Below the pieces are notes generated by a model, which was not told where the DNA came from, searched no databases, and was given only the letters and a program-made list of their open reading frames with translations. A stretch of 24,241 nt of DNA, taken from positions 1 through 24,241 of the IMG/VR virus record IMGVR_UViG_3300044643_001093. One strand, written 5' to 3'. Each line of letters begins with the position of its first letter. The stretch's first letter is position 1. Below are positions 2,241 through 24,241 of this stretch, piece after piece. The DNA comes from a virus. Position numbers and translations under genes: made by a program.

Positions 2241-3374
2241 ATGACTACACCCGACCATTCCGAACGTGCTCACGCTGAGTTCGGCCCCTCATCTCTCAAG
2301 TATGTTTCACTCTGCGCCGGATATCACGGCAAAGAAGGAAAGAACGCAGCCTCCGATAAGGGCACGCGTATCCATGAGGCTCTTGAAGTCCGCGACCCGT
2401 CCGCTCTCATGGACGATGACGAAGTACAAATCTATGAGCGCATGGTAGCCGAAGAGGATGAGGTCTTCCAAAATGTTTTTGGTGGTACTGACGGCGTAAC
2501 GATCAATCGCGAGATGCGCCTTGTGTTGGATCTCGACTGCGAGACACCGACATTCGGCACATCCGACATCGTAGCTTGGAAAGGCAACGTCGGTCTTCAG
2601 GTGGACTACAAGACTGGAATCAGCAAGATTGACGAGCCGCTGATTAACTGGCAAGCCAAAGCGTACGTACTTGCGGCGTTCCAGATGTATCCGGAACTGG
2701 AGACCATTCACTTTGCATTTCTAATCCCGAAGCGCGATGAGATCCTTGTCGGTACTTTCCATCGGTTTGAAATGGACGACCTGCGCAAACAGATTTCTAC
2801 CGTTATCAAGAAGGCCGAAACGACAAGACCGAAATGGGAAAATAAGACCATCGACATCGATGACCTTAACCCTACTGTGAACTGCCGCTTCTGCCGACAT
2901 GAGGAGCACTGTCCTGCATTAGGTGCAGTCGCAATCGAAGTCGTCAAGCGGTATAGGCCGGACCTACTGCCAGACGGACCCATCGCTTCTGGCGAGGTTG
3001 ACGATCCAGCTACAATCGAAAAGCTCTATGTCGTAGCCAAGATCGTAGAGAATTGGGCTTCCGGTATCAAGCACAAGGCTACAGGCATGGCGCACGAAGG
3101 CGTTGAGTTCGAGACCCTCAAGCTCAAGTCAATGGGTGCGCTTAAGAAGACCATCGAGAAAAACTACCTTGCGCAGCTCGCAATTAAACACGGACTTGAA
3201 CTTAATGAGATCATTGAGGCCGCTGACCTGACAATGGGTCAGCTCTCAAAAGCCCTGCATGATAAGGCTCCGAAAGGAAAAAAATCTTTTGTTGTTGACA
3301 GCTTCGAGAAAGAAGCTATTGATCTCGGCGTTGTCGAGGTTGGTTCAACACGATACACACTTTCCTCAAAATGA
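2241..3374 (+). CDS. RecB/Cas4-like PD-(D/E)XK exonuclease (DUF2800-type)
   Basis: This 377-residue protein has the RecB-family nuclease signature. H45 lies in GTRIHEALE, D109 in GTSDIV, the D-x-K motif is D122/K124 in VDYKTG, and the QxxxY motif IV is Q138/Y142 in NWQAKAY. A cysteine set, C25 near the N-terminus and C215-x2-C218-x5-C224 after the core, copies the split arrangement that holds a 4Fe-4S cluster in AddB and Cas4 nucleases. Phage members of this group (DUF2800) sit beside PolA-type polymerase genes, as here, and probably process DNA ends for recombination-dependent replication. The C-terminal 130 residues are helical and look like a separate interaction region. The start ATG has no Shine-Dalgarno sequence. 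A 73-base gap follows the stop, holding only a weak possible hairpin (AAAGGG/CCCTTT, about 3379-3403). Confidence 0.85.
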   Translation: MTTPDHSERAHAEFGPSSLKYVSLCAGYHGKEGKNAASDKGTRIHEALEVRDPSALMDDDEVQIYERMVAEEDEVFQNVFGGTDGVTINREMRLVLDLDCETPTFGTSDIVAWKGNVGLQVDYKTGISKIDEPLINWQAKAYVLAAFQMYPELETIHFAFLIPKRDEILVGTFHRFEMDDLRKQISTVIKKAETTRPKWENKTIDIDDLNPTVNCRFCRHEEHCPALGAVAIEVVKRYRPDLLPDGPIASGEVDDPATIEKLYVVAKIVENWASGIKHKATGMAHEGVEFETLKLKSMGALKKTIEKNYLAQLAIKHGLELNEIIEAADLTMGQLSKALHDKAPKGKKSFVVDSFEKEAIDLGVVEVGSTRYTLSSK

Positions 3375-8346: not shown

Positions 8347-8871
8347 CTAACGAACCCGCTTCTTCGTGATCTTCACGGAGGGCGGGTTCAGTTCTGAGAT
8401 GGGTACCACAAACTCATCAGAGAAAGATAGCTTGCCATCATTTGGATCAACATTGCCTTTAGGCAGGAAGGTTGCTTTCGCAATAAACTCTTTTGCTGGC
8501 AACCAACCAATAATAGTGGCGAGAGTCATTTGTTGGTTACACCTAACGAAATAGTAGACATCACATTTGCTGCCTATCTTTTCTGCACTGGACTCTGCAC
8601 CGTACACGCGAGCCACATAATGGGGTTCCGGCACACTAGCGGCCTTAGTCGTTTTCACGTCAATGGTTACGCCGTCTGGCATAGTGATGTCGTAAGCGAA
8701 GTTTATGTCGCCTACTCTACTGCCTCCGATCTCGCGGTGGACAAGCATCTCGCCCATCATTCCGATCTCGTTGCCGCGTCCGCGTGCGATGGAGCCTCTG
8801 AGCACGCCCATCGCTTTTGCCTCAGCACGCGCTTGTTTCCGGTCTTCACCGGAAGGTTTGATAACTATCAT
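8347..8871 (-). CDS. small PD-(D/E)XK-type nuclease (174 aa)
   Basis: This 174-residue protein has the layout of a PD-(D/E)XK nuclease: E41 in MMGEMLV on the first helix, D61 in YDITM, and D71-x-K73 in IDVKTTK on the next strands. A hydrophobic strand (CDVYYFVRCN) and the block ATIIGWLPAKEF follow, as is common after the catalytic core in this superfamily. It could be a phage endonuclease acting as a junction resolvase, on host DNA, or in packaging; the sequence does not decide which. It is the last gene of the right-to-left operon, joined to the virion gene by a TAATG overlap, and its 3' end contains the shared hairpin. There is no Shine-Dalgarno sequence. The catalytic assignment is likely; the substrate is unknown. 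Confidence 0.7.
   Translation of the reverse strand: MIVIKPSGEDRKQARAEAKAMGVLRGSIARGRGNEIGMMGEMLVHREIGGSRVGDINFAYDITMPDGVTIDVKTTKAASVPEPHYVARVYGAESSAEKIGSKCDVYYFVRCNQQMTLATIIGWLPAKEFIAKATFLPKGNVDPNDGKLSFSDEFVVPISELNPPSVKITKKRVR
8352..8389. terminator. hairpin between convergent operons, candidate bidirectional terminator
   Basis: GAACCCGC (8352-8359) pairs with GCGGGTTC (8382-8389). Inside, CTTCGTGA and TCACGGAG pair around a 3-base loop (TCT), giving a nearly continuous long hairpin at the meeting point of the two transcription units. It overlaps the last codons of the minus-strand nuclease gene. Neither side has a U-tract, so Rho-independent termination in the classical form is not shown. 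The outer arm shares AACCCGC/GCGGGTT with the hairpin at 4313-4351. Confidence 0.6.
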
Positions 8872-9815
8872 TAGTACAGTTGGTAAATACGATTGAGATT
8901 GCCGGTGCCGTAAGGATCAACGTTCAATCTCGGAAGAGCGGCACCCCGTGAGGTTGCCGCCTCTTCTTCTAGTAACAGCATACATTTGTTCCAATGGTAT
9001 TCGGCACGCTCAATATCGGCGTTGTCTTCCATCAGGCGTCCCAATAGACCGTGCTTGAGAGCACCAATATTGTTGATGTAAACGATATCGTCGTCGTTAC
9101 GGATCGGCTGGAACGCACGCTTGCAAAGCACATGCACGGTAGTCTGCCCATTAGTGGAGCGATTCAGACGAAATCTCCGATAGCGGGTTACGCCGGAGTC
9201 TGGTCCAACCGTAGCGATGGTGGTGTCGGAATCTCCAGCGGTGGTTCGGATATCGTACCAGTCTGTGAGGGCGTCAAATCTAATGCTGATTACCGAATTA
9301 ATTGGAGCGGAGAAGGTAAGCGGGACATCATTATCCGAAACGGAGTCAGTGGTAGATGCGTAGAGCTTGTCGCCGTCAGTTGCAGTAACAAGGATAGTAC
9401 CCCCGTCAGCTGGATTGAAGTTGGTTTTAGTGGGCGACTGGTCCGACGGCACAATATGGAGGGTGTCGGTTGCTGTCTCAATCAACCTCCTAATCGCATG
9501 GAAGCCAGCGTCAACTAGACCCCACGTAAGGTCAGACGCCCCAACCCCCATACCTGTAGATTTGAAGTCGTGCCATAGAGCACGAACCGGAACCGGTAGG
9601 TTGTTTACAGTAGTATGCAGAATAGAATCCGCTTCGTCTGGTAGCGTAATGCAGTTATCCACTACCGGTAAACTGTACTGAATAGTCAGATCTCGATACG
9701 TACCCATGTTGTAGATACGCGAAAGAACCTGATTCAGGCTGTTCTTAAAATCGCCGTCCGGCTCGATGTATTTATCGAGCAGCGGAACAAGCTGGCTGGC
9801 AGTGGTTGCTGGCAT
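8871..9815 (-). CDS. virion structural protein (314 aa), neck/adaptor-like
   Basis: This 314-residue protein begins with a helical segment (TTASQLVPLLDKYIEPDG, then SLNQVLSRIYNMGTYRDL). A beta-rich middle follows with CITLPDEADSILHTTVNNLP, a pattern I associate with a conserved phage virion family in which an LP-(R/D)-x-x-x-S-(I/V)-x motif precedes an N-x-x-P strand. The C-terminus (YRRFRL, then NNIGALKHGLLGRLMEDNAD and RAEYHWNKCMLLLEEE) is a helical hairpin typical of the end of these proteins. I infer a virion component near the portal or neck; the exact role is not proven. It is coupled to its neighbours by one-base TAATG overlaps on both sides. No signal peptide or membrane segment is present. 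Confidence 0.65.
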   Translation of the reverse strand: MPATTASQLVPLLDKYIEPDGDFKNSLNQVLSRIYNMGTYRDLTIQYSLPVVDNCITLPDEADSILHTTVNNLPVPVRALWHDFKSTGMGVGASDLTWGLVDAGFHAIRRLIETATDTLHIVPSDQSPTKTNFNPADGGTILVTATDGDKLYASTTDSVSDNDVPLTFSAPINSVISIRFDALTDWYDIRTTAGDSDTTIATVGPDSGVTRYRRFRLNRSTNGQTTVHVLCKRAFQPIRNDDDIVYINNIGALKHGLLGRLMEDNADIERAEYHWNKCMLLLEEEAATSRGAALPRLNVDPYGTGNLNRIYQLY

Positions 9816-10967: not shown

Positions 10968-12491
10968 TTAACAAGACTGTGTTGGTACCCACTTTAATTC
11001 ACGATTGTTTTGGTCCTGTATATCTATACCTAAAATATAAAGACCTTTTGTTGTTGGGAACTTCGGGAAAACATTAGGGTACCAATACTCATCAGTTGGG
11101 TAATTTTCAGAACCACTTAGAGTTTGAAACAAATGGCCACTTTGAATATTAATATCTTGCTGACCAGTAGCCGTAACATACGCAACAGTGTGTTCTTTAT
11201 AATCCGCTCTTGACATTATAATAGGGAAAACCATCCCTGTTTCTTTAGCATCTAACTGCTGCCCTTCCTGTTCTGGGTCTTTTTCTTTCCCGTTAGAGTC
11301 CTTTTTATCGTCTTTTTTAAGGGGCCTAGAGTTTGGGTTAGCCGTCTCAGACGAATCTTTAAGTGCTCTAGAGTTTGGGTTAGCCGTCTCAGACGAATCT
11401 TTAAGTGCTCTAGAATTTGGGTTAGCTGTGTCAGATGAATCTTCAAGAGCCCTAGATTCTGGATTAGCTGTCTCAGATGAATCTTCAAGAACTATAGATT
11501 CTGGATTAGCTGTCTCAGATGAATCTTCAAGAACTATAGATTCTGGGTTAGCTGTCTCAGGTAGATCTGGGGTTGTTTTATTCGGCGAGTCTTTAGTGCT
11601 TTGTTCTTTAGATAATTCTTTTATCTCTTTAACGTCGTTATCTGATAATTTAGTTGTAACTTTTTGAGTAGTAGATTTAGTTATTTCGTCAGCTGTGGTG
11701 CCGAGTTTTACATCTTTTCCTATATTGCTCGTAGTTGTTGTTTCAGTTTGCGGGGCACCGATTTTAGTTTCTGGTTTATCTAGAATAAGAGTAACAACGC
11801 TTTTAGCTTTGTCTACAGTCCCTTGTGTTTCTTCTACACTTACACTATCGTCAGTTTCTTGTGCCGATTCCGTTGGTATAAACGCCTCTTCTAAATCGGT
11901 TAGACGTCTTGTTAAGTTTTCAATTATCTGACTTTGTTGTTTAAATGCGTCAATAAAAAAATCGTTATTATTGATAGTTCTATTATCAACAGGAACTGGG
12001 GTGTTTAGATTACTAGACGCGCTAAACGAACTACCTACGTTAGTGACATCAGAACTCCTAGGAGTATTATTTAACGAAAAATCAATTGTGCTATTGCTGA
12101 TCTGGGGTACGACGCCGTCAATCGTTACTTTCTTAAACGTATCAAGTATTGTTACTCTGCTTATGTCTGCGATTGTATCGTATAGTTGCGGACTAACATA
12201 CCCACTATTTTGATTACCCAAAAAATCAGGCATCGGTGGCGCAAACGTCGCCCCTTCAAACGTGTTGTTTTTAAATTCTCCAATATCAAAAACCGATACG
12301 CTTGTGGTATTTAACGCTTCTGATGACAGTAATTGTTTTGTACCGTCTGCGCTATTTGTGCTGCTAGTACTATTTATTTGAGATAAACTGTGTAGCGGAT
12401 CTCTTCTATCATTCGATGAGAGATTATCTGACAACAGATCAAATGGTCTATTGTCCTCGTTTGGGAAAGAATCTAAAGTGTTTTCTGACAC
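10968..12491 (-). CDS. repeat-containing putative tail-fibre-associated protein (507 aa)
   Basis: This 507-residue protein starts at GTG (12489-12491), 11 bases after the upstream stop; no nearby ATG gives a better start. The order is: a Ser/Asn/Thr-rich, probably disordered region (1-170); a coiled-coil-like helix around 172-205 (FFIDAFKQQSQIIENLTRRL); a low-complexity acidic stretch; six 14-residue repeats of the form ETANP(E/N)SxxLxDSS (about 310-390); a Lys/Glu-rich hinge; and a globular C-terminal domain (about 415-507, with MVFPIIMSRADYKEHTVAYV and a Tyr/Trp-rich EYWYPNVFPKFP). This multi-part build, beside two giant fibre genes, suggests an elongated virion appendage with the C-terminus as its working head. 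I do not recognise the family. Confidence 0.6.
   Translation of the reverse strand: MSENTLDSFPNEDNRPFDLLSDNLSSNDRRDPLHSLSQINSTSSTNSADGTKQLLSSEALNTTSVSVFDIGEFKNNTFEGATFAPPMPDFLGNQNSGYVSPQLYDTIADISRVTILDTFKKVTIDGVVPQISNSTIDFSLNNTPRSSDVTNVGSSFSASSNLNTPVPVDNRTINNNDFFIDAFKQQSQIIENLTRRLTDLEEAFIPTESAQETDDSVSVEETQGTVDKAKSVVTLILDKPETKIGAPQTETTTTSNIGKDVKLGTTADEITKSTTQKVTTKLSDNDVKEIKELSKEQSTKDSPNKTTPDLPETANPESIVLEDSSETANPESIVLEDSSETANPESRALEDSSDTANPNSRALKDSSETANPNSRALKDSSETANPNSRPLKKDDKKDSNGKEKDPEQEGQQLDAKETGMVFPIIMSRADYKEHTVAYVTATGQQDINIQSGHLFQTLSGSENYPTDEYWYPNVFPKFPTTKGLYILGIDIQDQNNRELKWVPTQSC
11325..11562 (-). repeat. 42-bp tandem repeat, six copies, inside the 507-aa gene
   Basis: Six in-frame copies of a 42-base unit begin at 11331, 11373, 11415, 11457, 11499 and 11541 (counted from the common motif GTTTGGGTTAGC or its variants). 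They encode a 14-residue unit. Copies 1 and 2 are identical over almost their full length and copies 4-6 form a second similar group, so the array grew by at least two rounds of duplication. Confidence 0.9.
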
Positions 12492-12502
12492 GACTATTAA
12501 GT

Positions 12503-15500
12503 TTATTTAGTGTAGACCTCAATGGTTTCTGTAACCCACACACCACATTTCCAGTGTTCTGATTGTTGAGATACCAGCAACCAGTCAGGGATCTTAGTGG
12601 GCTGAGTAGCTGGGATCACTATAGTGTGTCCCGAAGGAAATGCCACAGTTATTTTTTCCCTTAAACATTTAGGGATAGACAGTGAAAATAGATTCTTACT
12701 TGTTGATTCTAACGATGATTGGTTACTAGAAGTAGAAGTTGACGCAGAAACTGATGTATTTAATCCTGCTGTCGCAGTCGCAGAACTAGAGACGTTAGAA
12801 CTATTTGAGGTTGAATTAGTATTGGTGTTGGTGGTGGAGTTTGATGTCCCGTTAGATGTGCTCGTAGAGGTACCAGTAGAAGTACCAGTAGAAGTACCGG
12901 TTGACGTACCGGTTGATGTACCAGTAGAAGTGCCGGTAGAAGTTCCAGTTGACGTACCAGTTGAAGTTCCGGTAGAAGTACCGGTAGAAGTTCCGGTAGA
13001 AGTACCAGTTGACGTACCAGTAGAAGTACCAGTAGAAGTACCAGTAGAAGTACCAGTAGAAGTACCAGTAGAAGTTCCGGTTGATGTACCGGTAGATGTA
13101 CCAGTTGACGTACCAGTAGAAGTACCAGTTGACGTACCAGTAGAAGTACCAGTTGACGTACCAGTAGAAGTACCAGTAGAAGTTCCGGTTGATGTACCGG
13201 TAGATGTACCAGTTGACGTACCAGTAGAAGTACCAGTTGACGTACCAGTAGAAGTACCAGTTGACGTACCAGTAGAAGTACCAGTTGACGTACCAGTAGA
13301 AGTACCAGTAGAAGTTCCGGTTGACGTACCAGTAGAAGTACCAGTAGAAGTTCCGGTTGATGTACCGGTAGATGTACCAGTTGACGTACCAGTAGAAGTT
13401 CCGGTTGATGTACCGGTAGAAGTCCCAGTAGAAGTGCCAGTAGAAGTTCCGGTTGACGTACCGGTTGACGTACCGGTAGATGTACCGGTAGATGTACCGG
13501 TAGCTGTACCGGTAGATGTACCGGTAGATGTACCAGTTGACGTACCAGTAGAAGTACCAGTTGACGTACCAGTAGAAGTTCCGGTAGAAGTTCCGGTAGA
13601 AGTACCAGTTGACGTACCAGTAGAAGTACCAGTAGAAGTACCAGTAGAAGTTCCGGTTGATGTACCGGTAGATGTACCAGTTGACGTACCAGTAGAAGTA
13701 CCAGTTGACGTACCAGTAGAAGTACCAGTTGACGTACCAGTAGAAGTACCAGTAGAAGTTCCGGTTGATGTACCAGTTGACGTACCAGCATCAATACCCG
13801 ATACTATTTTCTCATACGTATTTGTTTCTCTGGCTTGCCCACTACCGTTTTTGTTCGTTATTAGTCCAAAACCTTTTCTAGACCCAATATTGGTCCTAGA
13901 AAAATCCGATCCTCTGAAATTTTTATTTGAGGTTGTAGTACCACTTGAAGTGTTGGTACTGGTGTTGGTACTCGTATTAGTACTTGTATTAGTACTGGTG
14001 TTAGTACTCGTGTTGGTACTGGTATTAGTACTCGTGTTGGTACTCGTGTTAGTACTCGTGTTAGTACTGGTATTAGTACTGGTATTAGTACTGGTGTTAG
14101 TACTCGTATTAGTACTCGTATTAGTACTCGTATTAGTACTCGTATTAGTACTTGTGTTAGTACTGGTATTGGTACTGGTATTGGTACTGGTATTAGTACT
14201 GGTATTAGTACTCGTGTTGGTACTGGTGTTAGTACTGGTGTTAGTACTGGTATTAGTACTCGTGTTGGTACTAGTGTTAGTACTGGTATTGGTACTGGTG
14301 TTAGTACTGGTATTGGTACTGGTATTGGTACTGGTGTTAGTACTGGTGTTAGTACTGGTGTTAGTACTGGTGTTAGTACTGGTGTTAGTACTGGTGTTAG
14401 TACTGGTGTTAGTACTGGTGTTAGTACTCGTATTAGTACTCGTATTAGTACTTGTGTTAGTACTGGTATTGGTACTGGTATTAGTACTGGTATTAGTACT
14501 CGTATTAGTACTTGTGTTAGTACTGGTGTTAGTACTGGTATTGGTACTGGTGTTAGTACTGGTATTGGTACTGGTGTTAGTACTCGTGTTAGTACTGGTG
14601 TTGGTACTTGTATTGGTACTGGTGTTAGTACTCGTGTTGGTACTGGTATTAGTACTGGTATTAGTACTGGTATTAGTACTTGTATTGGTACTCGTATTAG
14701 TACTGGTATTGGTACTCGTGTTGGTACTGGTATTAGTACTGGTGCTAGTATTAGTATTAGAGGCTGTTGATGTGGAGTTTGTAACTGTAGTGTTTAACCC
14801 TTTATAAATAGAATTAGATTCATTACTAGAAGTCTGCGACCCAGACTGATTGCCACTGGACGAACTAGAAGAACTAGATGAATTAGAACTTTTACTACTA
14901 GACTTAGAAGTTAAATCATACTCAAAAGAAGCGTTAAAAGTTTCTGTTGCATAGAATGGAGTATACGAATTTAAAGAATTTTCGGGAGGGCCGTACGAAA
15001 AAGATCTAGTGAATTTAGTTTTTAAAGGTGAGTCCAATACCCGCTTCCACTTAGGAACCGCTATAAATCTTTCTGTCCCGATGACCTCAATACTCTCAAG
15101 AACATCCGGCAAATTTTCTCGCCTTAACCCATACCACACTTGCGGTTTAGGTAGGTTGGACAGATATGTTGTATTTTTATAAGAACGCCATTGGTCTTTC
15201 GGTTCTATCTCAACTGATTGTATTTCATCTCCTTTTTTAACTATACCGGTTTTATCACTATAGGGTAGTGATACAACTTCACGGTTAAAATATACCGGCA
15301 AACCGTATCTCGGGTCTGTCTGCACACCGTTTAGTGTCGGATATACCACGTTACCAGCCGTATTGGGCGGTACTTCTATGGTGGTTTTAACGCTTTGACC
15401 GTTACCTAACGGTGTAACTGAACTTTCAATAACACCAAAACCGGAGTCCACGTGAGTGCCGTCTTCAACAAGAGATTCCTTCCGTTTGGCAATAACTCCG

Positions 15501-16267
15501 CCGTAGTCGTTAACAATAAGTTCTCCTTCCGGTAGGACAACTGGCAAGTCTGGCTCAGTCCTTGATGTGGTCTTAACTACCTTTACATTAGGGTTGAGCT
15601 GGTCTTCCGAAGAAACTAAATCGTTACCAGCAAGTACTGGCAAAGTGGCATAGCCTTCTTTGATTTCTTCAGTAGTAACATTAGGAATAGACTCCCGAAA
15701 CTTATCAGGGATTAGATCCGGTTTCTGTGCGGAGTAGCTAATCTTTGTCTTGAGGAACTCGTCCTCGACGTACGTACGCTCTTCGATAACGTAGAGCGAG
15801 TCAAATTCCGGTTCACTTTTAGCCTGCTTCTTGTCGAAGAAAATGTAGTTGACGCCCTCAAAGGTACCTTCCGGCACGTCTGGCATTAGTGTTTTAAAAG
15901 CAGGAAAGTCTGGATCGAAGTCAGACCTCGGCGTGAGGTAGGTCCTAATAACAACACGCAGCTCCCGCCCTCCGGCGTTGCCAATAATGTTACGGTAGCC
16001 GAACGCGAAGTTATAGCGGTCCTGTTCCTCTCTGTCCGCAGCGTAAAAGAACTCGAAGATACCATCGCGCTCGATGTCTACTGGCTTGACGAAGACCAGC
16101 TTGTGGTGGGGCCACTTAACGGAATCAGGATGCGGGGTACCGTATGCAGGAATCTCGGAGCGGGTGCAATCCTTTACTTGACTGAATAATACGTCACCAC
16201 TATCCGGCGTGGGGTAAACCCGACGGTCTTGCCTATAGGGTGCTTGAGGTAATTGAGATACGGGCAT
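12503..16267 (-). CDS. giant low-complexity fibre-like protein with TSTN and GTST arrays (1254 aa)
   Basis: This 1254-residue protein has a non-repetitive N-terminal region (1-450) with mixed alpha/beta texture, probably its attachment to the virion. A polyserine stretch follows (about 455-485), then a perfect Thr-Ser-Thr-Asn array (about 504-774), a unique 50-residue basic linker (SSGTTTSNKNFRGSDFSRTN onward), a Gly-Thr-Ser-Thr array (about 826-1136), an Asn/Ser-rich stretch and a globular C-terminus of about 80 residues with two cysteines (CLREKITVAFPSGHTIVIP; WKCGVWVTETIEVY). The arrays would form long extended stalks that could be heavily O-glycosylated or stack as a narrow beta structure; both are conjecture. 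The ATG at 16267 lies 11 bases after the fibre stop, without a Shine-Dalgarno sequence. GC is about 50% in the 5' part and about 40% further on. I do not recognise the family. Confidence 0.7.
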   Translation of the reverse strand: MPVSQLPQAPYRQDRRVYPTPDSGDVLFSQVKDCTRSEIPAYGTPHPDSVKWPHHKLVFVKPVDIERDGIFEFFYAADREEQDRYNFAFGYRNIIGNAGGRELRVVIRTYLTPRSDFDPDFPAFKTLMPDVPEGTFEGVNYIFFDKKQAKSEPEFDSLYVIEERTYVEDEFLKTKISYSAQKPDLIPDKFRESIPNVTTEEIKEGYATLPVLAGNDLVSSEDQLNPNVKVVKTTSRTEPDLPVVLPEGELIVNDYGGVIAKRKESLVEDGTHVDSGFGVIESSVTPLGNGQSVKTTIEVPPNTAGNVVYPTLNGVQTDPRYGLPVYFNREVVSLPYSDKTGIVKKGDEIQSVEIEPKDQWRSYKNTTYLSNLPKPQVWYGLRRENLPDVLESIEVIGTERFIAVPKWKRVLDSPLKTKFTRSFSYGPPENSLNSYTPFYATETFNASFEYDLTSKSSSKSSNSSSSSSSSSGNQSGSQTSSNESNSIYKGLNTTVTNSTSTASNTNTSTSTNTSTNTSTNTSTNTSTNTSTNTSTNTSTNTSTNTSTNTSTNTSTNTSTNTSTNTSTNTSTNTSTNTSTNTSTNTSTNTSTNTSTNTSTNTSTNTSTNTSTNTSTNTSTNTSTNTSTNTSTNTSTNTSTNTSTNTSTNTSTNTSTNTSTNTSTNTSTNTSTNTSTNTSTNTSTNTSTNTSTNTSTNTSTNTSTNTSTNTSTNTSTNTSTNTSTNTSTNTSTNTSTNTSTNTSTNTSTNTSTNTSTNTSTNTSTNTSTNTSTNTSSGTTTSNKNFRGSDFSRTNIGSRKGFGLITNKNGSGQARETNTYEKIVSGIDAGTSTGTSTGTSTGTSTGTSTGTSTGTSTGTSTGTSTGTSTGTSTGTSTGTSTGTSTGTSTGTSTGTSTGTSTGTSTGTSTGTSTGTSTGTSTGTATGTSTGTSTGTSTGTSTGTSTGTSTGTSTGTSTGTSTGTSTGTSTGTSTGTSTGTSTGTSTGTSTGTSTGTSTGTSTGTSTGTSTGTSTGTSTGTSTGTSTGTSTGTSTGTSTGTSTGTSTGTSTGTSTGTSTGTSTGTSTGTSTGTSTGTSTGTSTGTSTGTSTGTSTGTSTGTSTGTSTGTSTGTSTGTSTGTSTGTSTGTSTGTSTGTSTSTSNGTSNSTTNTNTNSTSNSSNVSSSATATAGLNTSVSASTSTSSNQSSLESTSKNLFSLSIPKCLREKITVAFPSGHTIVIPATQPTKIPDWLLVSQQSEHWKCGVWVTETIEVYTK
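12858..13787 (-). repeat. 12-bp tandem array encoding (Gly-Thr-Ser-Thr)n, about 77 units
   Basis: The coding-strand unit is GG(T/A) AC(T/G/A) TC(T/A) AC(T/C), with all four third positions varying and the protein staying GTST, apart from one GTAT unit at about 13501. Larger blocks are themselves repeated: a 108-bp stretch at 13074-13181 recurs identically at 13650-13757. The unit count is my estimate from the tract length. Confidence 0.9.
13946..14750 (-). repeat. 12-bp tandem array encoding (Thr-Ser-Thr-Asn)n, about 67 units
   Basis: The coding-strand unit is AC(C/G/A) AGT AC(T/C) AA(C/T). The serine codon is always AGT, while the other three third positions vary, and I see no amino-acid change through the body of the array. 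It is separated from the GTST array by about 150 bases of unique sequence. The unit count is my estimate from the tract length. Confidence 0.9.
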
Positions 16268-16278
16268 ATTTTAATGGT

Positions 16279-19200
16279 CTATCCTAAGAATTTGATTTCT
16301 CCGTAGTTGGAAACAATTGGGGCGTCTGATCCAGCGGCATTAGTTGCATAAAGGTTAAGGCCCATCCCTTCAAGATTATTGACTGTAATACTTTTAGAGG
16401 TTACTTCGATGGTTTCTTTACCGTTACCATCCGTACAATTAATTGTGGTTTCAAACTTAAACATTGCGGAAGATGTTTTCGATATTTTTACCGACAATTT
16501 GGTTGTTGTACTTAAGTCTGAAACTACAGTAAACATAGAATCTAGTAGGCTAACACCACCAAATGTGATATTATAAAATTGCGAGAGCGGCGAAGTAGTT
16601 GCCTTACGTGTCGTTGTAAATTGTATGTTAACTGACTTCAACAGCGATACCAATGATGAAGTTGGTATTGGTATCCCATGTAACAAAATCTCACTAGTGC
16701 TCGACCCTGTAGTTGTTTCATTAGGGTTAAACGTAGGGTTGGGGGCTTCATCAGAAACTTCAGTAAGGTAAGACAATTCTGTTGGAGCACCAACGACGTT
16801 AATTGGTAATGTTACATATGTCGTTCCTTTAAAGTTAAATTTATACTCATCAGGAAGAACTAATACGATATCAACGTAATCAACTTTAATTTTTGACGTG
16901 TACGACCCAGCTCTATTAGGGGTTCCGTATAACCTACCAGTAGTTGGAATCTCTTCGTCGATTTGCAAACCCGAAGGGAGTGATTTGCTAGACAAAAATA
17001 AACGGTTTGTGAATGTTTGTATTGTGTCTTTTAGAAGTTTTACTGGGCGACTTATGTTTCCGACCATTCCGCCGCTGGCAATTGGCCCCAAATGACCACT
17101 ATTATCATGCCCCCAAACGTATATGTTTCCATCATCTGTTACAGCGTATGAACTGTACTCTCCGGCAGCTATATCTACAACTTTTAAATCTCTAGGAATA
17201 CCGTTAACACCTCTTACAACACTACGTGGGCGTGTTAGCTCGCTAACTCCAACACCCACACCTAGCACACCACTAGTGTTAATCCCATAGCTTGCTAATG
17301 AACCATCGGTACACAGCACTAACGTATGATTTCTACCGGTTGCTATTTTTTTAACTGTTTTACCCAATAAAAACCCACGACTCAATAGGTCTTTAGGTCC
17401 AATTAGCATCTCATGCGTGTCATCACTATAGTACGCCAAAAGAACATTTTGCGCCGTAGACGCTATGATATCTACTATAGGAGCGCTTCTAGGGTTAGGC
17501 AACAAAGTCCAATTAATGGAACAATTTAATTTATATTGCGAAAGGGTAGAAGGCGGTAAATGTGGTTGCGAAATTACCACAACACCATTTGAATTAGATA
17601 TTTGTGGCGGCGGTAATTCTAGCGGCCCTATTGATTCCGACTGGATTGAAAAAATAATTGGGCTTTGTGGGATAGTAAAATCAGAAGACACAGATATATC
17701 GGTCTGCGGTATTTCTATACGCCAAGTACTTTGCCCCGAAATTGTGGGCATAAAAAATTTAGTGTTTGGGGGTAGAAATCCTGCAAATATAGAACTAAAA
17801 GTAATTAGTGGTGCGTCGTATGGTAGTTCAAACATCCCTGTTTCTGTGTCACCACTCTTCACACGAACAAGTTTATAGCCTGATAACAAGGTCGGGTCAA
17901 CATAAACAAGCATACTTTTAGTACCACCAATACCACCAAAAGTTATTACTTGGGATTGTTGTTCTGTGTTAGTTATTTTATTAATACCAATTTGTCCATT
18001 CCCACCAAAAGATTCCAATGAATAATAGAAAAGATCACCAGTTTTATTGGGTATAAATAAAGTAGAGTCAAAAGATGGTCGTTCTATGATAGCTATTTGA
18101 GAAGTCGTATTGTTTGTAATTTTATACAATATACGCTGATCAGCAATTTTCCTACCTCGTGTTGTTCTAATGTTTGTTGTGGTATATAAGCTACCTAAAT
18201 GATCAGACCATATGTCAGAAGCATATATATTAATTGGTGTTATTTGTTTTAGTTGAGATATCCTTTCAACCCTACCTAACGAATCAAAAGTTATGTTTTG
18301 ACTTATATTACCACTAGGTTTTTCAGCTTCGTTAACTACAATAACATCTCCATTAGAATCTAACGCAACCGATCTAGGTCTAAATTGAGCACTATTTACT
18401 GTAGTATGTGGTTGTTTAATTACTACAACATTACCTGTTTGAGACACACTAGCGTTTGGTAGTACCGATGGCGATATAGAGTCATCAATATACTTAAACT
18501 CAAAAGCACTTTTAGATAGGTTAAGATCAGAGGCTAGTACTTCAGTTTCAGTAGGGAATTGAATTTGCCAAGTCTCTTGGTTAGCGACTGACGGTCTAGA
18601 GTACTGCGTACCTTGAGGGAGGAATCCCGAAAACACAGCGGTAATATCACTCACTGACGCATTATACGGTACAAGAAAATTCTGAGTTTCGGTGCTTGGG
18701 TTCGCATTAACCATTTTATACCTGCTCAGTACGCCAGTGTTTACAGAACAGCGTATTCCTCCACTATACGCAGCACTTAAGGCTAATTCCACAGACCTAA
18801 TTCCAGTTTCTGATAGGCTAGATATACCCCAATCAGGTATTGTGCCTTTCAGCGTGGTCAGAGTCCAAACTAAAATCTTCCCTCCCCTAAAATTTAATTT
18901 AATATACGGAAACTTATAATCGCCTTTTACTGGCAAATCAGTAAATATATCAGATATAGCAGTATTATTATTTACTATTTTACCTACTCTGATTTTGAAG
19001 TCAGAAGGGTTTGTATGATCTGCGCTAGGTCTATAAGTTTTTGTAGTATATAAATTACCTGAATAATCAGACCATACCGCCGCAGCATACAGATTAGTTG
19101 GAGTAACTTGTTGCGTTTGAGATACCCTCTCAATCCTACTCATGTTTATACCATATGCATCAACGTACTCTGAATTATTATTTTGTATTGCATAGTTAGT

Positions 19201-21750
19201 TATAAAAACATTACCATTAGTCCCAATAGCAACCGACGTGGGTTTACATGTAGGAGTACCAGCATAAAAAACCGAAACAACTCCGTTACTATTTATTTTT
19301 TTTACATTAAATGGTCCAGCTACACTACTGTTATTAAGCGGTACCCCCCTATAAGGAACCTCACACGCGTAAATATTCCCACTAGAGTCAATTACTGGAG
19401 ATACTATAGATTGATCAGTGCCCCAGTTAGCGTGGAGAGAAACGGTTCCTGTAGATGTTACTTTATAAACAGAGACATCTTGCAAAAGATAATAAACACC
19501 AGATCTTACAAGAATACTAGAAATGTTTGAAAAAGGTACTTCAAAAGGTTCAGTTACTTCGGACCATACCGAACCGTTGTATTTATAAATAATATAAGAA
19601 TAAAGTATTTGGTTTACTGCGTTTGTAAGTCGCTCATATTCAAAGTTAGCTTCTTTAAGATCCGCTTTTTTTACTCTTAATTCGTCTTGTAATCCATTAG
19701 CTTGTTGCCTTTTTTCCCTTACTAGCTCAACAAGAGACGAGCTGGGGTTATAGTAACCATAATAATCACTATACTCTTCTATTTTTTGATAAAGGGCATT
19801 AAGATCGTTCTCTATTAAAGAAATCTGGCTTGTAAGTTGGGTTTTAACAGCGTTTATTTGTGAAATCTCATTTTGATTTCTTTCAAGTTTTGCTGCGTAA
19901 GCTGCTTGTGAAAGCTGTACCGTCTGTTCCTTGCCTTTAAACAAAACATAAATACAATCTGGATCGTCTGGGGTGGTTGTATAAATCTCTGTTGCTTTAA
20001 ATTCTCCTTTATTAGATACCGGAGAGGGAATAGAAAACTTTTTCCCAAACAAAGGAGCACCCGAAAAATTACGAACTACTTTATTATAATTATCAGAATC
20101 AACTAAATAACCATCAGTATCGCTTGTAAGTTCAATAGTATTACCATACATACCATTACGGAAGGCTGAAGTAAATGGTACCTGTGCGTAATTACCAACC
20201 GTTTTTTTAACGTTAACTTGTATACTACCCGCAGTAGGCACTGCGGTTTGGGTTGAGTTTGTTTGTTTATGGAAGGTCGTAACCACACCGCTAGGTGAAA
20301 TTTTTCTAACGGAGTACTCACCAGCCGTTGTCGCATTACCTACGGCTACACGACTGTCGCATACATAAATATTATTGCTAGAATCAATTACCGGAGTACC
20401 TACAAAACGTCCAAACCTAGCAGCAGTTCCCGTTGCATCCACATAACCGTACTGATTTGATGCTCCTGCAAAAACAGAAACAACCCCAGCTGATGTTATT
20501 TTGTAAATTAAATTACGAACAAAAATATAAAAATTATTATTAGTATCTTTAATAATACGAGTTTCTTCATTAATTTGAGACCCTACTATAACGAAAATAC
20601 CAGTAACTTCAGCCCAACCACCATTAGCATACTTGTAAATATTAAGAGTCGAATAACTAGAGTTATCTCTAAATAAAACGTAAAGACCGGTTGAATCAGC
20701 AGTAAATAGCGGAGTATTTACAAAAGAACTAGTTGGTTTAACACCACTATATGGTAAATCAATTGTAAAAGATTTACCATACACAGCAGTATTATTGCTG
20801 CGAAAAACTTGATTAGTTGTTTTATTAACTAAATAGGAATCTTTATCGCTGTTAATTATGACACTATCACCATAAGGTCCTACGCGTATAGCGTCGGTAA
20901 CAGGAAATTCTTCTAGTTCTTGTGTTTGTTTTGTAACTTTTATTTCTATCGAACCACTTGTAGGTATTACTCCGGCAACTGGAATAGTGTACGGCTCAGT
21001 GCCTGTACTTAAAGTAACTGTGGCAGCGGTACCGTCAGTAAAAAGAACGCCATAATCTATTTTACTAGAACTATGAGTCCGTGATTGAGTAGTGCTACCC
21101 TTATAGCCGACACCAATTTGTTTGATTTTAGAGATAGTCTTACCCGAAATAATAGAACTATTGTCCTCATTTTTTAGTAGCGTAAACGAAGTATCTTGTG
21201 CGGCTACTAATGGTCTCACTAATGCCGATTGGAAATTACTGCTAGTAGTAATATTAGACTTATCGTCAGAAATATTAACAGATACATTAAGCGCATGTGC
21301 ATCGGCAGACCAAGGACCTTTACCACGAAAATAATCATTATAATAAGTAAGATCAACAATCCAGTTTTTGTAGTTATCAGGCGTTGTTGCATAAAACAAA
21401 TTAGGATCAGAATAATAGTCACCGTCAGCTATTACATTATATACATCTGAGGTATAAGGTGAAGAGTCTTGAAAAAACCTCCCCCATCTGCCTATAGTTC
21501 CATCGGAGCTAAGAACACGCGCATAACCACTAGGGTGTGTGCTGACTTTTACAATCTTCTCACCGGTAAGAGATGTACCCTCCGTCTCTGTGTCGTACTC
21601 CTCCGAAATATTAGTTGTGATTGTACTGCCGTTAACGTCTTTTATCTGAAAAATATCGAATAAATCAATAGTAGTTGGTTGGTCTTTGTAAACAGTAAGC
21701 CCTTCGCTGATGCTGCTATCTAGCTCTACGGTAATTGTATCTTTTGGCAT
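16279..21750 (-). CDS. giant modular tail fibre/adhesin with RCC1- and NHL-like segments (1823 aa)
   Basis: This 1823-residue protein has no cleavable signal peptide. Segments in order are: an N-terminal RCC1-like stretch (about 70-90, VLSSDGTIGRWGRF); two related modules (about 260-505 and 500-810) with NHL-like repeats (SAGVVSVFAGASNQYGYVDA, TPVIDSSNNIYVC), the second interrupted by a coiled coil (about 608-720); two further related modules (about 870-1115 and 1160-1400); an RCC1-like propeller piece (about 1440-1570, GRNHTLVLCTDGSLASYG and DDGNIYVWGHDNSGHLG); an Ig-like He_PIG-type segment (about 1600-1630, LPSGLQIDEEIPTTGRLYGT); and a beta-rich end. NHL and RCC1 repeats normally build beta-propellers, so this is probably a receptor- or polymer-binding fibre. 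The gene is strongly AT-rich (18 of 60 bases G+C in one hand-counted sample). It could be a minor virion adhesin rather than the main fibre. Confidence 0.75.
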   Translation of the reverse strand: MPKDTITVELDSSISEGLTVYKDQPTTIDLFDIFQIKDVNGSTITTNISEEYDTETEGTSLTGEKIVKVSTHPSGYARVLSSDGTIGRWGRFFQDSSPYTSDVYNVIADGDYYSDPNLFYATTPDNYKNWIVDLTYYNDYFRGKGPWSADAHALNVSVNISDDKSNITTSSNFQSALVRPLVAAQDTSFTLLKNEDNSSIISGKTISKIKQIGVGYKGSTTQSRTHSSSKIDYGVLFTDGTAATVTLSTGTEPYTIPVAGVIPTSGSIEIKVTKQTQELEEFPVTDAIRVGPYGDSVIINSDKDSYLVNKTTNQVFRSNNTAVYGKSFTIDLPYSGVKPTSSFVNTPLFTADSTGLYVLFRDNSSYSTLNIYKYANGGWAEVTGIFVIVGSQINEETRIIKDTNNNFYIFVRNLIYKITSAGVVSVFAGASNQYGYVDATGTAARFGRFVGTPVIDSSNNIYVCDSRVAVGNATTAGEYSVRKISPSGVVTTFHKQTNSTQTAVPTAGSIQVNVKKTVGNYAQVPFTSAFRNGMYGNTIELTSDTDGYLVDSDNYNKVVRNFSGAPLFGKKFSIPSPVSNKGEFKATEIYTTTPDDPDCIYVLFKGKEQTVQLSQAAYAAKLERNQNEISQINAVKTQLTSQISLIENDLNALYQKIEEYSDYYGYYNPSSSLVELVREKRQQANGLQDELRVKKADLKEANFEYERLTNAVNQILYSYIIYKYNGSVWSEVTEPFEVPFSNISSILVRSGVYYLLQDVSVYKVTSTGTVSLHANWGTDQSIVSPVIDSSGNIYACEVPYRGVPLNNSSVAGPFNVKKINSNGVVSVFYAGTPTCKPTSVAIGTNGNVFITNYAIQNNNSEYVDAYGINMSRIERVSQTQQVTPTNLYAAAVWSDYSGNLYTTKTYRPSADHTNPSDFKIRVGKIVNNNTAISDIFTDLPVKGDYKFPYIKLNFRGGKILVWTLTTLKGTIPDWGISSLSETGIRSVELALSAAYSGGIRCSVNTGVLSRYKMVNANPSTETQNFLVPYNASVSDITAVFSGFLPQGTQYSRPSVANQETWQIQFPTETEVLASDLNLSKSAFEFKYIDDSISPSVLPNASVSQTGNVVVIKQPHTTVNSAQFRPRSVALDSNGDVIVVNEAEKPSGNISQNITFDSLGRVERISQLKQITPINIYASDIWSDHLGSLYTTTNIRTTRGRKIADQRILYKITNNTTSQIAIIERPSFDSTLFIPNKTGDLFYYSLESFGGNGQIGINKITNTEQQSQVITFGGIGGTKSMLVYVDPTLLSGYKLVRVKSGDTETGMFELPYDAPLITFSSIFAGFLPPNTKFFMPTISGQSTWRIEIPQTDISVSSDFTIPQSPIIFSIQSESIGPLELPPPQISNSNGVVVISQPHLPPSTLSQYKLNCSINWTLLPNPRSAPIVDIIASTAQNVLLAYYSDDTHEMLIGPKDLLSRGFLLGKTVKKIATGRNHTLVLCTDGSLASYGINTSGVLGVGVGVSELTRPRSVVRGVNGIPRDLKVVDIAAGEYSSYAVTDDGNIYVWGHDNSGHLGPIASGGMVGNISRPVKLLKDTIQTFTNRLFLSSKSLPSGLQIDEEIPTTGRLYGTPNRAGSYTSKIKVDYVDIVLVLPDEYKFNFKGTTYVTLPINVVGAPTELSYLTEVSDEAPNPTFNPNETTTGSSTSEILLHGIPIPTSSLVSLLKSVNIQFTTTRKATTSPLSQFYNITFGGVSLLDSMFTVVSDLSTTTKLSVKISKTSSAMFKFETTINCTDGNGKETIEVTSKSITVNNLEGMGLNLYATNAAGSDAPIVSNYGEIKFLG

Positions 21751-21768: not shown

Positions 21769-24241
21769 TTAAGCAGTTACTGATTTAATAACGACAAAGG
21801 AAATAACGATTGCGTCAGATAAAGCCCCGTTTGTATGGTTGCGAATATTAATTGTTGCGCTACCACTATTTGTTCGGGCATTAAAAATATAATCACCCAA
21901 GTTACCGCCAGAATGGTGGTTCATAACTACAATGTCTTCGGTTTCAATTTTAGAGTTAGTAAGAGTAAACGACACACTAGCGCCACCAGCAAGGGAGGCA
22001 GAGCTTGTTGTAATCTGACCGTTAGTTTTATTTAATGTGACCCCGTTTGATTTGCTAGTAGGTTGTGTAATAGTACCACCAGAACCAGAAGTATATCCAA
22101 TTTTACCGGTACCGTTAACTAATCCATTTTCAAAATATTCAGGGATAACATAAAGGGAACCGTTTCCACTATCAGCGTGTGCGACATAGCCAACACGTAC
22201 TTTATACAATGGGTACGTCGGTTCGGTCGCCGTAAACCCACCGCCAGACGATAACCATACTTCTTGACCACTAAGATACGCCCCCAAATTTAACCCCCGC
22301 ACTAACCCACTCAAAGTAACATAACCCGATTCACCGATATCAATATCTTGTGTAGCTACCCCTACCACTGCTTTCGATGACAATGCGTCGTTAGAAGCAA
22401 GCCCGACTTCAGGAACTCCGTCAAAGGAGCCATTAATGTAAACGACTTGACCGTTTAGGATATTCTCTGAAGCATTGACAAACATCAATACTTCCTGACC
22501 AATTTGCTGTGTAACAGAAGTACCGGACATCTTTAGGTCTAGAGTTTTGTCCGTGCTGTTCCATCGAAGTTGGCCTTCAGTTAGTGCGGTACCGGTATCT
22601 GGAGTGGTATCAAATGAGAGGGTACCGATACCATCAGAACCATAACCAGTACCGCCTTTTGATACAGGAAGAACACCAGTAATATCTGCAACTGGGATTG
22701 TGTCACTAGCTGTCATTGCAGTAGTGCCAGTTCCTTTCACGTAACCTGTTAGTGACGACGCTCCAGTACCACCATTTGAGACAGAAATAGAACCAGTAAG
22801 ATCTGAAGTTGGGATAGTAGCACTTGCCGTCATTGCAGTAGTGCCAGTTCCTTTCACGTAACCTGTTAGTGACGACGCTCCAGTACCACCATTTGAGACA
22901 GAAATAGAACCAGTAAGATCTGAAGTTGGGATAGTAGCACTTGCCGTCATTGCGGTAGTACCAGTACCTTTAATATAACCGGTTAGTGTGGTTGCTCCAG
23001 TACCACCATTTACAACTGCAAGAGTGCCAGTAATATCGGCAACTGGGATTGTGCTACTGGCTGTCATTGCGGTAGTGCCAGTTCCTTTTACGTAACCCGT
23101 TAGTGTTGATGCTCCGGTTCCGCCGTTAGAGACAGAGATAGTACCAGTAAGATCCGAAGTTGGGATAGTAGCACTTGCCGTCATTGCAGTAGTGCCAGTT
23201 CCTTTTACGTAACCCGTTAACGTCCCCGTTCCAGTACCCCCACTCCCAACCGGAAGAGTGCCAGATACATGGGTTGTTAGACCGACTTTACCATACGAAG
23301 GCGCGTTATTGATGTTACCGGATAGGAGTACATTACCAGTTCCTATGCTTGAGAGCCTACCAAAATTAGAACTCGTGTTGGCATACACGATATCACCGAT
23401 GGAGTACGACGAAAAACCAGTGCCTCCCATTTGTACAGGAACTACACCACTTACATCAGATATGTTTATTGTAGCCCATGACGGAGCAGAAAGACCGTTC
23501 GCTCTTAAGAAACCATTAGATACTGTAGCCAACATTGCTGTAGCACCTACAGCAGACTGGTACGGGATAGAACCTACATTACCACCAGCTAAGTTTGTAG
23601 CGGTAGTTGCAGTTGTAGCAGATGTTGCAGTCGTAGCGGAACCAGCTGATGTTGCAGTCGTAGCAGAACCAGCTGATGTCGCATACGTAGCGGTAGCTGC
23701 ATTACCAGTTGTGCTTTGGTTTAGCGTAGGAAAATCAGCAGCGACAGCAATTGAAGGCTCTCCGGTACTCGTTGTGTTTTTGAGAATACCAGTAGCCAAA
23801 CCAGCAAGGGAGACGTTATTGATCTTCGTAACTTTAAGTACACCAGCTGTATCAGTGACATCACCGGTATGTGTGACGTTCGTAACTTTGGCAGTATTAG
23901 CTGTAATCTCGTTAGACAATGCCGTACTGAGCATTGACTTCTCGACAACAGACCAAGAAGGAGCAGCTGCGCCGTTAGATTTCAACACGGCACCACTAGC
24001 TCCAGACGTTAGCATGGCTGTGCTACTAGCTCCCGTTTGATATGGCAAAGAACCAACGATACCGCCAGCGATGTTGGTAGCAACGGTAGCAGATGTTGCA
24101 GTCGTAGCGGAACTAGCTGATGTTGCAGTCGTAGCAGAACCAGCTGATGTCGCATACGTAGCGGTAGCTGCATTACCAGTTGTGCTTTGGTTTAGCGTAG
24201 GAAAATCAGCAGCGACAGCAATTGAAGGCTCTCCGGTACTC
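21769..24241 (-). CDS. tail-fibre protein with NGGTGA repeats, 5' end outside window
   Basis: The frame is open to the window edge, giving 823 codons; the apparent start at 24048 is only an internal TTG. The N-terminal part seen is Ala/Thr/Ser-rich (SAGSATTATSA type) with LNQSTTGNAATATYA, as in phage fibre shafts. Five 39-residue repeats follow (GYVKGTGTTAMTAS, then IPTSDLTGTISVSNGGTGAS), the familiar NGGTGA fibre repeat. Next is a domain with NGQVVYINGSFDG, VVGVATQDIDIGESGYV and GQEVWLSSGGG, seen in many phage fibres. The C-terminal tip (about the last 90 residues) has VVMNHHSGGNLGDYIFNART and INIRNHTNGALSDAIVISFV, a common receptor-binding end domain. The role is host attachment. The 18 bases after its stop (21751-21768) are followed directly by the giant fibre. 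Confidence 0.9.
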   Translation of the reverse strand, partial: STGEPSIAVAADFPTLNQSTTGNAATATYATSAGSATTATSASSATTATSATVATNIAGGIVGSLPYQTGASSTAMLTSGASGAVLKSNGAAAPSWSVVEKSMLSTALSNEITANTAKVTNVTHTGDVTDTAGVLKVTKINNVSLAGLATGILKNTTSTGEPSIAVAADFPTLNQSTTGNAATATYATSAGSATTATSAGSATTATSATTATTATNLAGGNVGSIPYQSAVGATAMLATVSNGFLRANGLSAPSWATINISDVSGVVPVQMGGTGFSSYSIGDIVYANTSSNFGRLSSIGTGNVLLSGNINNAPSYGKVGLTTHVSGTLPVGSGGTGTGTLTGYVKGTGTTAMTASATIPTSDLTGTISVSNGGTGASTLTGYVKGTGTTAMTASSTIPVADITGTLAVVNGGTGATTLTGYIKGTGTTAMTASATIPTSDLTGSISVSNGGTGASSLTGYVKGTGTTAMTASATIPTSDLTGSISVSNGGTGASSLTGYVKGTGTTAMTASDTIPVADITGVLPVSKGGTGYGSDGIGTLSFDTTPDTGTALTEGQLRWNSTDKTLDLKMSGTSVTQQIGQEVLMFVNASENILNGQVVYINGSFDGVPEVGLASNDALSSKAVVGVATQDIDIGESGYVTLSGLVRGLNLGAYLSGQEVWLSSGGGFTATEPTYPLYKVRVGYVAHADSGNGSLYVIPEYFENGLVNGTGKIGYTSGSGGTITQPTSKSNGVTLNKTNGQITTSSASLAGGASVSFTLTNSKIETEDIVVMNHHSGGNLGDYIFNARTNSGSATINIRNHTNGALSDAIVISFVVIKSVTA
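22713..23297 (-). repeat. 117-bp direct repeats, five copies, in the tail-fibre gene
   Basis: The motif TCATTGC(A/G)GTAGT begins at 22713, 22830, 22947, 23064 and 23181, exactly 117 bases (39 codons) apart. Copies 1 and 2 are nearly identical for most of their length; the fifth diverges in its second half. They encode the GYVKGTGTTAMTAS/NGGTGA shaft unit. Confidence 0.92.
23618..23770 (-). repeat. 153-bp direct repeat, first copy (partner 24089-24241)
   Basis: This stretch matches 24089-24241 with one mismatch (AACCAGCTGA against AACTAGCTGA) at an offset of 471 bases, which is 157 codons. Both copies are in the same frame and encode the Ala/Thr-rich shaft and the GEPSIAVAADFPTLNQ segment. 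Confidence 0.92.
24089..24241 (-). repeat. 153-bp direct repeat, second copy, cut by window end
   Basis: This is the partner of 23618-23770 with one base difference. The match runs right up to the last base of the window, so the repeat is longer than seen and there may be further copies upstream in the fibre gene. Confidence 0.9.

Follow-up and report, generated by a model that had tools for sequence, protein, structure and literature searches.

Repetitive beta-structured shafts are known from the T4 long tail fibre and from the triple beta-spirals of adenovirus and reovirus. Long antiparallel beta-hairpins between domains occur in the MACPF/CDC, gasdermin and aerolysin pore proteins, and the hairpin strands of these proteins are tens of residues long. 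The protein described here is encoded in a 24,241-bp uncultured virus record, the whole of which was analysed and is called the window. It resembles phage tail fibres in its putative repetitive beta-rich shaft, its tailed phage origin, its tail-fibre-like neighbours, its conserved N-terminus and its variable distal part. However, known tail-fibre shafts run one way, whereas the chain of this protein would go out and back in two low-complexity strands of matched length. Searches gave no match to the known fibre shafts in sequence or in fold. It resembles the pore proteins in its putative long antiparallel beta-hairpin between domains, and the fold resemblance of a homologue lacking the arrays is weak. 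Unlike those proteins, it belongs to a family with low-complexity arms of 128 to 782 residues, polar on both faces. It also shares Ser/Thr-rich low complexity and scrambled synonymous codons with serine-rich repeat adhesins, mucins and sericin-like silks, for which we know of no paired, equal-length second array and no cross-array pairing. We consider it highly probable that the two arrays of this protein pair in antiparallel fashion as one giant beta-hairpin with its turn in the linker between them, probably in a virion-attached fibre or adhesin. The features of the window are collected in Table 1.

Table 1. Parts of the putative hairpin protein and neighbouring genes in the window.
Feature	Position	Strand	Remarks
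Whole ORF	12503-16267	minus	1254 aa
N-terminal domain	14918-16267	minus	aa 1-450; ends at the anchor Tyr of ..FNASFEY
Arm 1, putative outgoing strand	13868-14917	minus	aa 451-800; anchor Tyr to linker Gly, 351 residues
TSTN array	13952-14743	minus	66 units, aa 509-772, within arm 1
Linker, predicted hairpin turn or tip	13787-13951	minus	55 residues between the arrays
Arm 2, putative returning strand	12674-13867	minus	linker Gly (aa 801) to aa 1198
GTST array	12863-13786	minus	77 units in the window, aa 828-1135
Overlapping 128-nt exact repeats	13050-13285	minus	with an extra nine-unit (108-nt) block, ABABABDEC
C-terminal domain	12506-12673	minus	aa 1199-1254; starts with PKCLR
Tail-fibre-like protein	21769-24240	minus	five 117-nt (39-aa) tandem repeats; runs past the window end; PHROG tail-fibre match
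RCC1-like and NHL repeat protein	16279-21750	minus	1823 aa; beta-propeller-like; adjacent to the hairpin gene on its upstream side
ORF with tandem repeat	10968-12491	minus	507 aa; 42-nt repeat at 11326-11560 (5.6 copies; SSETANPESIVLED-like units)
Gene that follows the hairpin gene in many relatives, both armed and array-less	8871-9815	minus	314 aa
SNF2-type helicase-like and Cas4-like nuclease genes, replication block	713-2020 and 2241-3374	plus	

The preliminary description claimed two pure four-residue arrays of about 77 GTST and 67 TSTN units. Both arrays are real, and 77 and 66 units, respectively, were counted in one ORF. Its statement that the units differ almost only at wobble positions, with one replacement, was accurate: a single GTAT unit (Ser to Ala, about 13502-13504) is the sole replacement in the GTST array, and the TSTN array has none. 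Comparison between units gave pS = 0.55 and pN = 0 for TSTN, and pS = 0.48 and pN = 0.0045 for GTST. When the silent and non-silent differences were counted, as had been proposed, the alleles at each site required at least 14 silent events and 1 replacement. The binomial probability of the silent excess under random single-base change is about 4e-4 for GTST and 5e-4 for TSTN. Since silent changes far outnumber replacements, purifying selection on the window arrays at the protein level is supported. The distinct 12-mers are few (11 and 13 in the two arrays), some wobble sites are invariant, the Ser codon of TSTN is always AGT, and blocks such as ABABABDEC recur within the arrays. The few 12-mers and the recurring blocks indicate that the units are not independent and that recombination and duplication have spread a few mutations. 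The suggestion of an old array is unsupported, and the block structure points instead to continuing turnover. A plus-strand ORF at 12624-14807 (727 aa, with VEVPVDVP... and VLVLVL... stretches) was rejected as a gene; it is antisense to the arrays and is open only because they contain no stops in that frame.

Relatives were sought in viral contigs with profiles of the N-domain, the C-domain and the end of the N-domain. About 20 lineages with arrays were recovered, together with many homologues that lack them. No cultured relative was found in INPHARED, and no cellular relative across 84,980 bacterial and archaeal genomes. The array-bearing members share one layout, consisting of N-domain, arm 1, short linker, arm 2 and a C-domain with the motif ..PKCLR..QSEHWK.GIWVTE... 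The beta-rich N-terminal domain is conserved in armed and array-less relatives. The arm units vary by lineage and include SSSQSGSQ, NSGTQSST, SGTSSQSGTSSS and SQSQSQGQ among others, so the exact TSTN and GTST protein is not conserved in the family. Selection for the protein, as first proposed, is thus borne out within the window, and exactness of sequence as a rule does not extend to the family. Judged from the sequences, the family appears to keep the alternation of residues, the equality of the arms in length and the pairing between them. Two related proteins (L025 and L029) have no Ser/Thr arms and carry other, GSSNVVWTDGTTTIYEVNEIT-like tandem repeats. The relatives are tailed phages by gene content, as a 70-kb relative contig carries genes for terminase large subunit, endolysin, CHAP, DnaB and primase.

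Arm 1 was taken to run from the anchor Tyr that closes the N-domain as far as the linker Gly, and arm 2 from the linker Gly to the Pro of PKCLR. The linker anchor was picked by eye in each lineage, and a few choices could be shifted by one or two residues. Arm 2 is longer than arm 1 by 10 residues, give or take 2, in 18 of 19 lineages, over arm 1 lengths of 128 to 782 residues. The fit over the 19 lineages is arm 2 = 0.9997 × arm 1 + 9.6 (r = 0.9999). In a permutation control for the 18 of 19, the mean was 1.6 and the maximum was 9 in 100,000. The rule had been fixed before three further lineages (L080, L084 and L085) turned up, and the differences of arm 1 minus arm 2 there are -10, -9 and -10. 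In ten of the lineages that fit, neither arm contains an exact DNA repeat of more than 24 nt; therefore, the equality of the arms cannot be produced by assembly. Departures from the rule were found in the window (-47), L002 (+145), L006 (+23) and L007 (+119), all of which have, or are related to, arrays whose exact repeats exceed 127 nt. The rule thus lets assembly errors in such arrays be detected. L060 and L061, at about +1 to +3, are 11-13 residues off the rule and have no long exact DNA repeats. They are the only reproducible exception of this kind.

The deviation of the window is connected with its GTST copy number, which differs among contigs of the same phage: 77 units in the window, 68 in L003, 50 in L035 and 29 in L002. 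The flanks are 100% identical to the window over 12.3 kb in L002, over the same length minus 468 bases in L003, and over 4.9 kb plus the linker in L035. The TSTN array is the same as that of the window in L002 and L003, both of which span it, and in the 29 units reached by L035. The points at which the 68- and 29-unit versions part from the window are the longest exact repeats in it, of 128 and 161 nt; this is the pattern expected of collapse or expansion in short-read assembly at k near 127. In the 50-unit version, 18 units are missing with no long homology at the junction, so that part of the variation in GTST length may be real. The extra nine-unit block is unique to the window and missing from L003 and L035; it is suspected to be a mis-assembly or a recent duplication. 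Arm 2 to the PKCLR anchor has 398 residues in the window and 362 in L003; the 77-unit version is off the length rule by 37 residues and the 68-unit version fits it (-11). The count of 77 is therefore doubtful. That the arrays exist and their length in the window is an assembly artefact is, on these four counts between identical flanks and these joins, the somewhat likelier account of the copy number. It would account for the window (perhaps also L006 and L007) alone, as the family pattern holds without long exact repeats, and it is compatible with the hairpin reading.

To compare the two faces, residues were numbered forward from the N anchor in arm 1 and backward from the C anchor in arm 2. 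In nearly every lineage, Thr and Ser share one parity in this numbering and Gly takes the opposite one; pooled over the arms, Thr is distributed 2164:241 and Gly 9:995 between alternate faces. The parity is the same from both anchors, so that the alternation is phase-locked to both ends, and in 11 lineages Thr also keeps a constant phase modulo 4. The Ser/Thr alternation is weaker in L043 and L047, and in arm 1 of L080 Gln occupies the Ser/Thr face. Phase slip does not build up across hundreds of arm residues, as would be expected of uninterrupted beta-strands.

One pair of phages could be aligned codon by codon. The arms are 420 and 430 residues long in L030, and 576 and 586 in L033. Counted from the tip, an extra 4 residues appear at position 121 of arm 1 and at position 120 of arm 2. 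The insertion of the other 152 residues falls at about 281-321 (arm 1) and 284-317 (arm 2), giving 156 in total per arm. Codon identity on the chosen shifts was 0.28-0.51 against a background of 0.20 with a maximum of 0.27, so the segment at 0.28 is weak. Such mirrored insertions, read from the sequences of a single phage pair, are the pattern expected of compensatory change in paired strands. Other pairs were too diverged, and their weak alignments were left out. The matched arm segments of L030 and L033 share 89-95% amino-acid identity, with only 28-51% of codons identical. This bears on neutral, microsatellite-like expansion, in which the silent excess and the equal lengths would be accidental. 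Block duplications and the variable copy number among contigs of the same phage suit such a process. We give it almost no probability, as it is opposed by the 14 to 1 minimum events, by the identities just given and by the equal arms in about 20 lineages.

Covariation between the arms was scanned over 117 antiparallel registers in the 19 lineages. The register i + j = Y + P - 3 gave a mean z of 1.93, whereas the 116 others had a standard deviation of 0.28 and a maximum of 0.80. The peak persists in 15 non-redundant lineages (z 1.80). Among residues opposed at this register, Gly:Asn was observed 314 times against 176 expected, Ser:Ser 646 against 542, and Asn:Ser 131 against 253. Within a protein, 69% of Asn lie opposite Gly, compared with 33% when arms are taken from different lineages (15 non-redundant lineages). 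The turn centre implied by this register is 3.5 residues past the linker Gly, which corresponds to GAPL/VGDP. In the window, GLITNKNGSGQAR (13829-13867, in the linker) was matched by eye to the family motif GAPLVGDPxxNR, and this alignment is uncertain. In a parallel-register control, the maxima fell at the edge registers -52 to -61, probably through inflation by few pairs. In the same 19-lineage scan, the signal was absent in L023, L043, L047, L055, L058 and L085. The Asn:Gly complement expected of TSTN and GTST in the window was absent at the family register, where Asn faces Ser and Ser faces Gly; Asn:Gly would need a two-residue offset there, and the discrepancy is real. The pure repeats of the window hold phase information only. 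An alternative is that the arrays are two independent, unpaired low-complexity linkers, flexible or glycosylated in a mucin-like manner. The composition in S, T, G, N and Q agrees with it, as does the lack of confident structure in the AlphaFold2 arms. It seems very improbable to us, because such linkers fail to predict equal length, phase-locked alternation, mirrored insertions and covariation across the arms.

In the AlphaFold2 model of the array-bearing L055, two strands of similar length, the last of the N-domain (262-283) and the first of the C-domain (540-563), lead into the arms, which themselves have pLDDT under 50. From their lengths and positions in the model, these two strands may pair. 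The model of an array-less homologue (L019) contains hairpin-like strands at 486-511 and 517-544 with five residues between them. They lie just before the PKCLR-equivalent segment, with pLDDT of about 86-95 over most of their length. The segment is also present in other array-less homologues. Most simply, a short hairpin present in the ancestor would have been extended 5- to 30-fold by low-complexity arms. In a fold search with L055, no PDB match was obtained at E ≤ 0.001, lambda tail-tip and kinase-lobe rows had Z < 5, and one uncharacterised BFVD protein of an uncultured tailed phage matched (E 8e-6).

The top PDB rows for the L019 model were MACPF/CDC and gasdermin pores (VIA Z 5-7.1, rmsd 7-19 Å). 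Membership among pore proteins was not accepted from these rows, since Z ≤ 7.1 is within the range of a common arrangement (<8). An hmmsearch of PDB sequences, including MACPF/CDC and gasdermin, with profile A5 gave no match at E ≤ 1. The main rival of the hairpin rod is a closed ring of subunits in which the long hairpins together make up a giant beta-barrel tube, serving as a conduit. The lead of hairpin-barrel pore proteins among the matches speaks for the tube, and two-face alternation would also suit a barrel wall. We regard it as unlikely in view of the low Z and high rmsd, the polarity of both arm faces, and relatives with truncated or different distal parts, to which a long tube would not be essential. 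Ig-like modules in varying number on the N-side also suggest a stalk instead. In L043, L099, L105, L020 and L024, the N-terminal side carries a varying number of similar modules (..KPDxVPxKFR..LGDG..), and residues 238-302 of L019 have an Ig-like resemblance (Z 4.7). These modules look like a stalk of variable length.

The giant hairpin is preferred because the arms are equal, the alternation is locked to both ends, insertions are mirrored, covariation peaks at one register and array-less homologues have a short hairpin. Of the marks of an antiparallel beta-hairpin, equal strand lengths about a turn, two-residue alternation and covariation at one register at the family level were found. The narrow beta stack or extended stalk suggested in the preliminary description came near to this reading, except that the arrays would be two strands and not two separate rods. 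In the proposed arrangement, the N- and C-terminal domains would form the base, from which the chain would pass through arm 1, the turn and arm 2. The Ser/Thr/Gly/Asn-rich arms would run antiparallel and pair as one very long, nearly bulge-free beta-hairpin, turning at the conserved linker. The ribbon would be a rod exposed on the virion. Its Ser/Thr face may pack in an oligomer, for example a trimer, with the Gly/Asn/Ser face outward, and the linker may be the tip that contacts the host. Arm length would then set the reach, from about 40 to 260 nm at about 0.33 nm per residue, and about 115 nm in the phage of the window.

The protein most likely serves as a virion fibre with the turn at its tip, and the tail-fibre-type neighbour and the tailed-phage genes of the 70-kb relative are counted in support of this reading. 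Among PHROGs tail-fibre profiles, the window protein had only a composition-driven match (phrog_4785); the best PHROGs match of the array-less members (E 0.0078) was a family of unknown function. The 314-aa gene possibly encodes a tail or connector protein; it had no PDB match, and none of its PHROG matches rose above weak chance level. The genes of the replication block partially match the PADLOC DpdE/DrmD and Cas4-like nuclease profiles.

A search of part of the literature, mainly outside subscription journals, found no description of this architecture. As far as our searches and general knowledge reach, the two-strand, length-matched and residue-paired arrangement is rated as categorically new. 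A formless-looking repeat thereby becomes a readable structure, in which pairing register, turn position and strand length are obtained from sequence alone. The finding also suggests a design rule for very long two-stranded beta ribbons, consisting of alternating Thr/Ser with Gly:Asn and Ser:Ser across the strands. It raises the question of how two separate arrays change length together. We think it likely that the family is the protein equivalent of a long RNA stem-loop, with strands of up to about 780 residues paired through compensatory mirrored insertions and a preference for Asn:Gly and Ser:Ser, so that the length of a phage fibre would be tunable by paired insertions.
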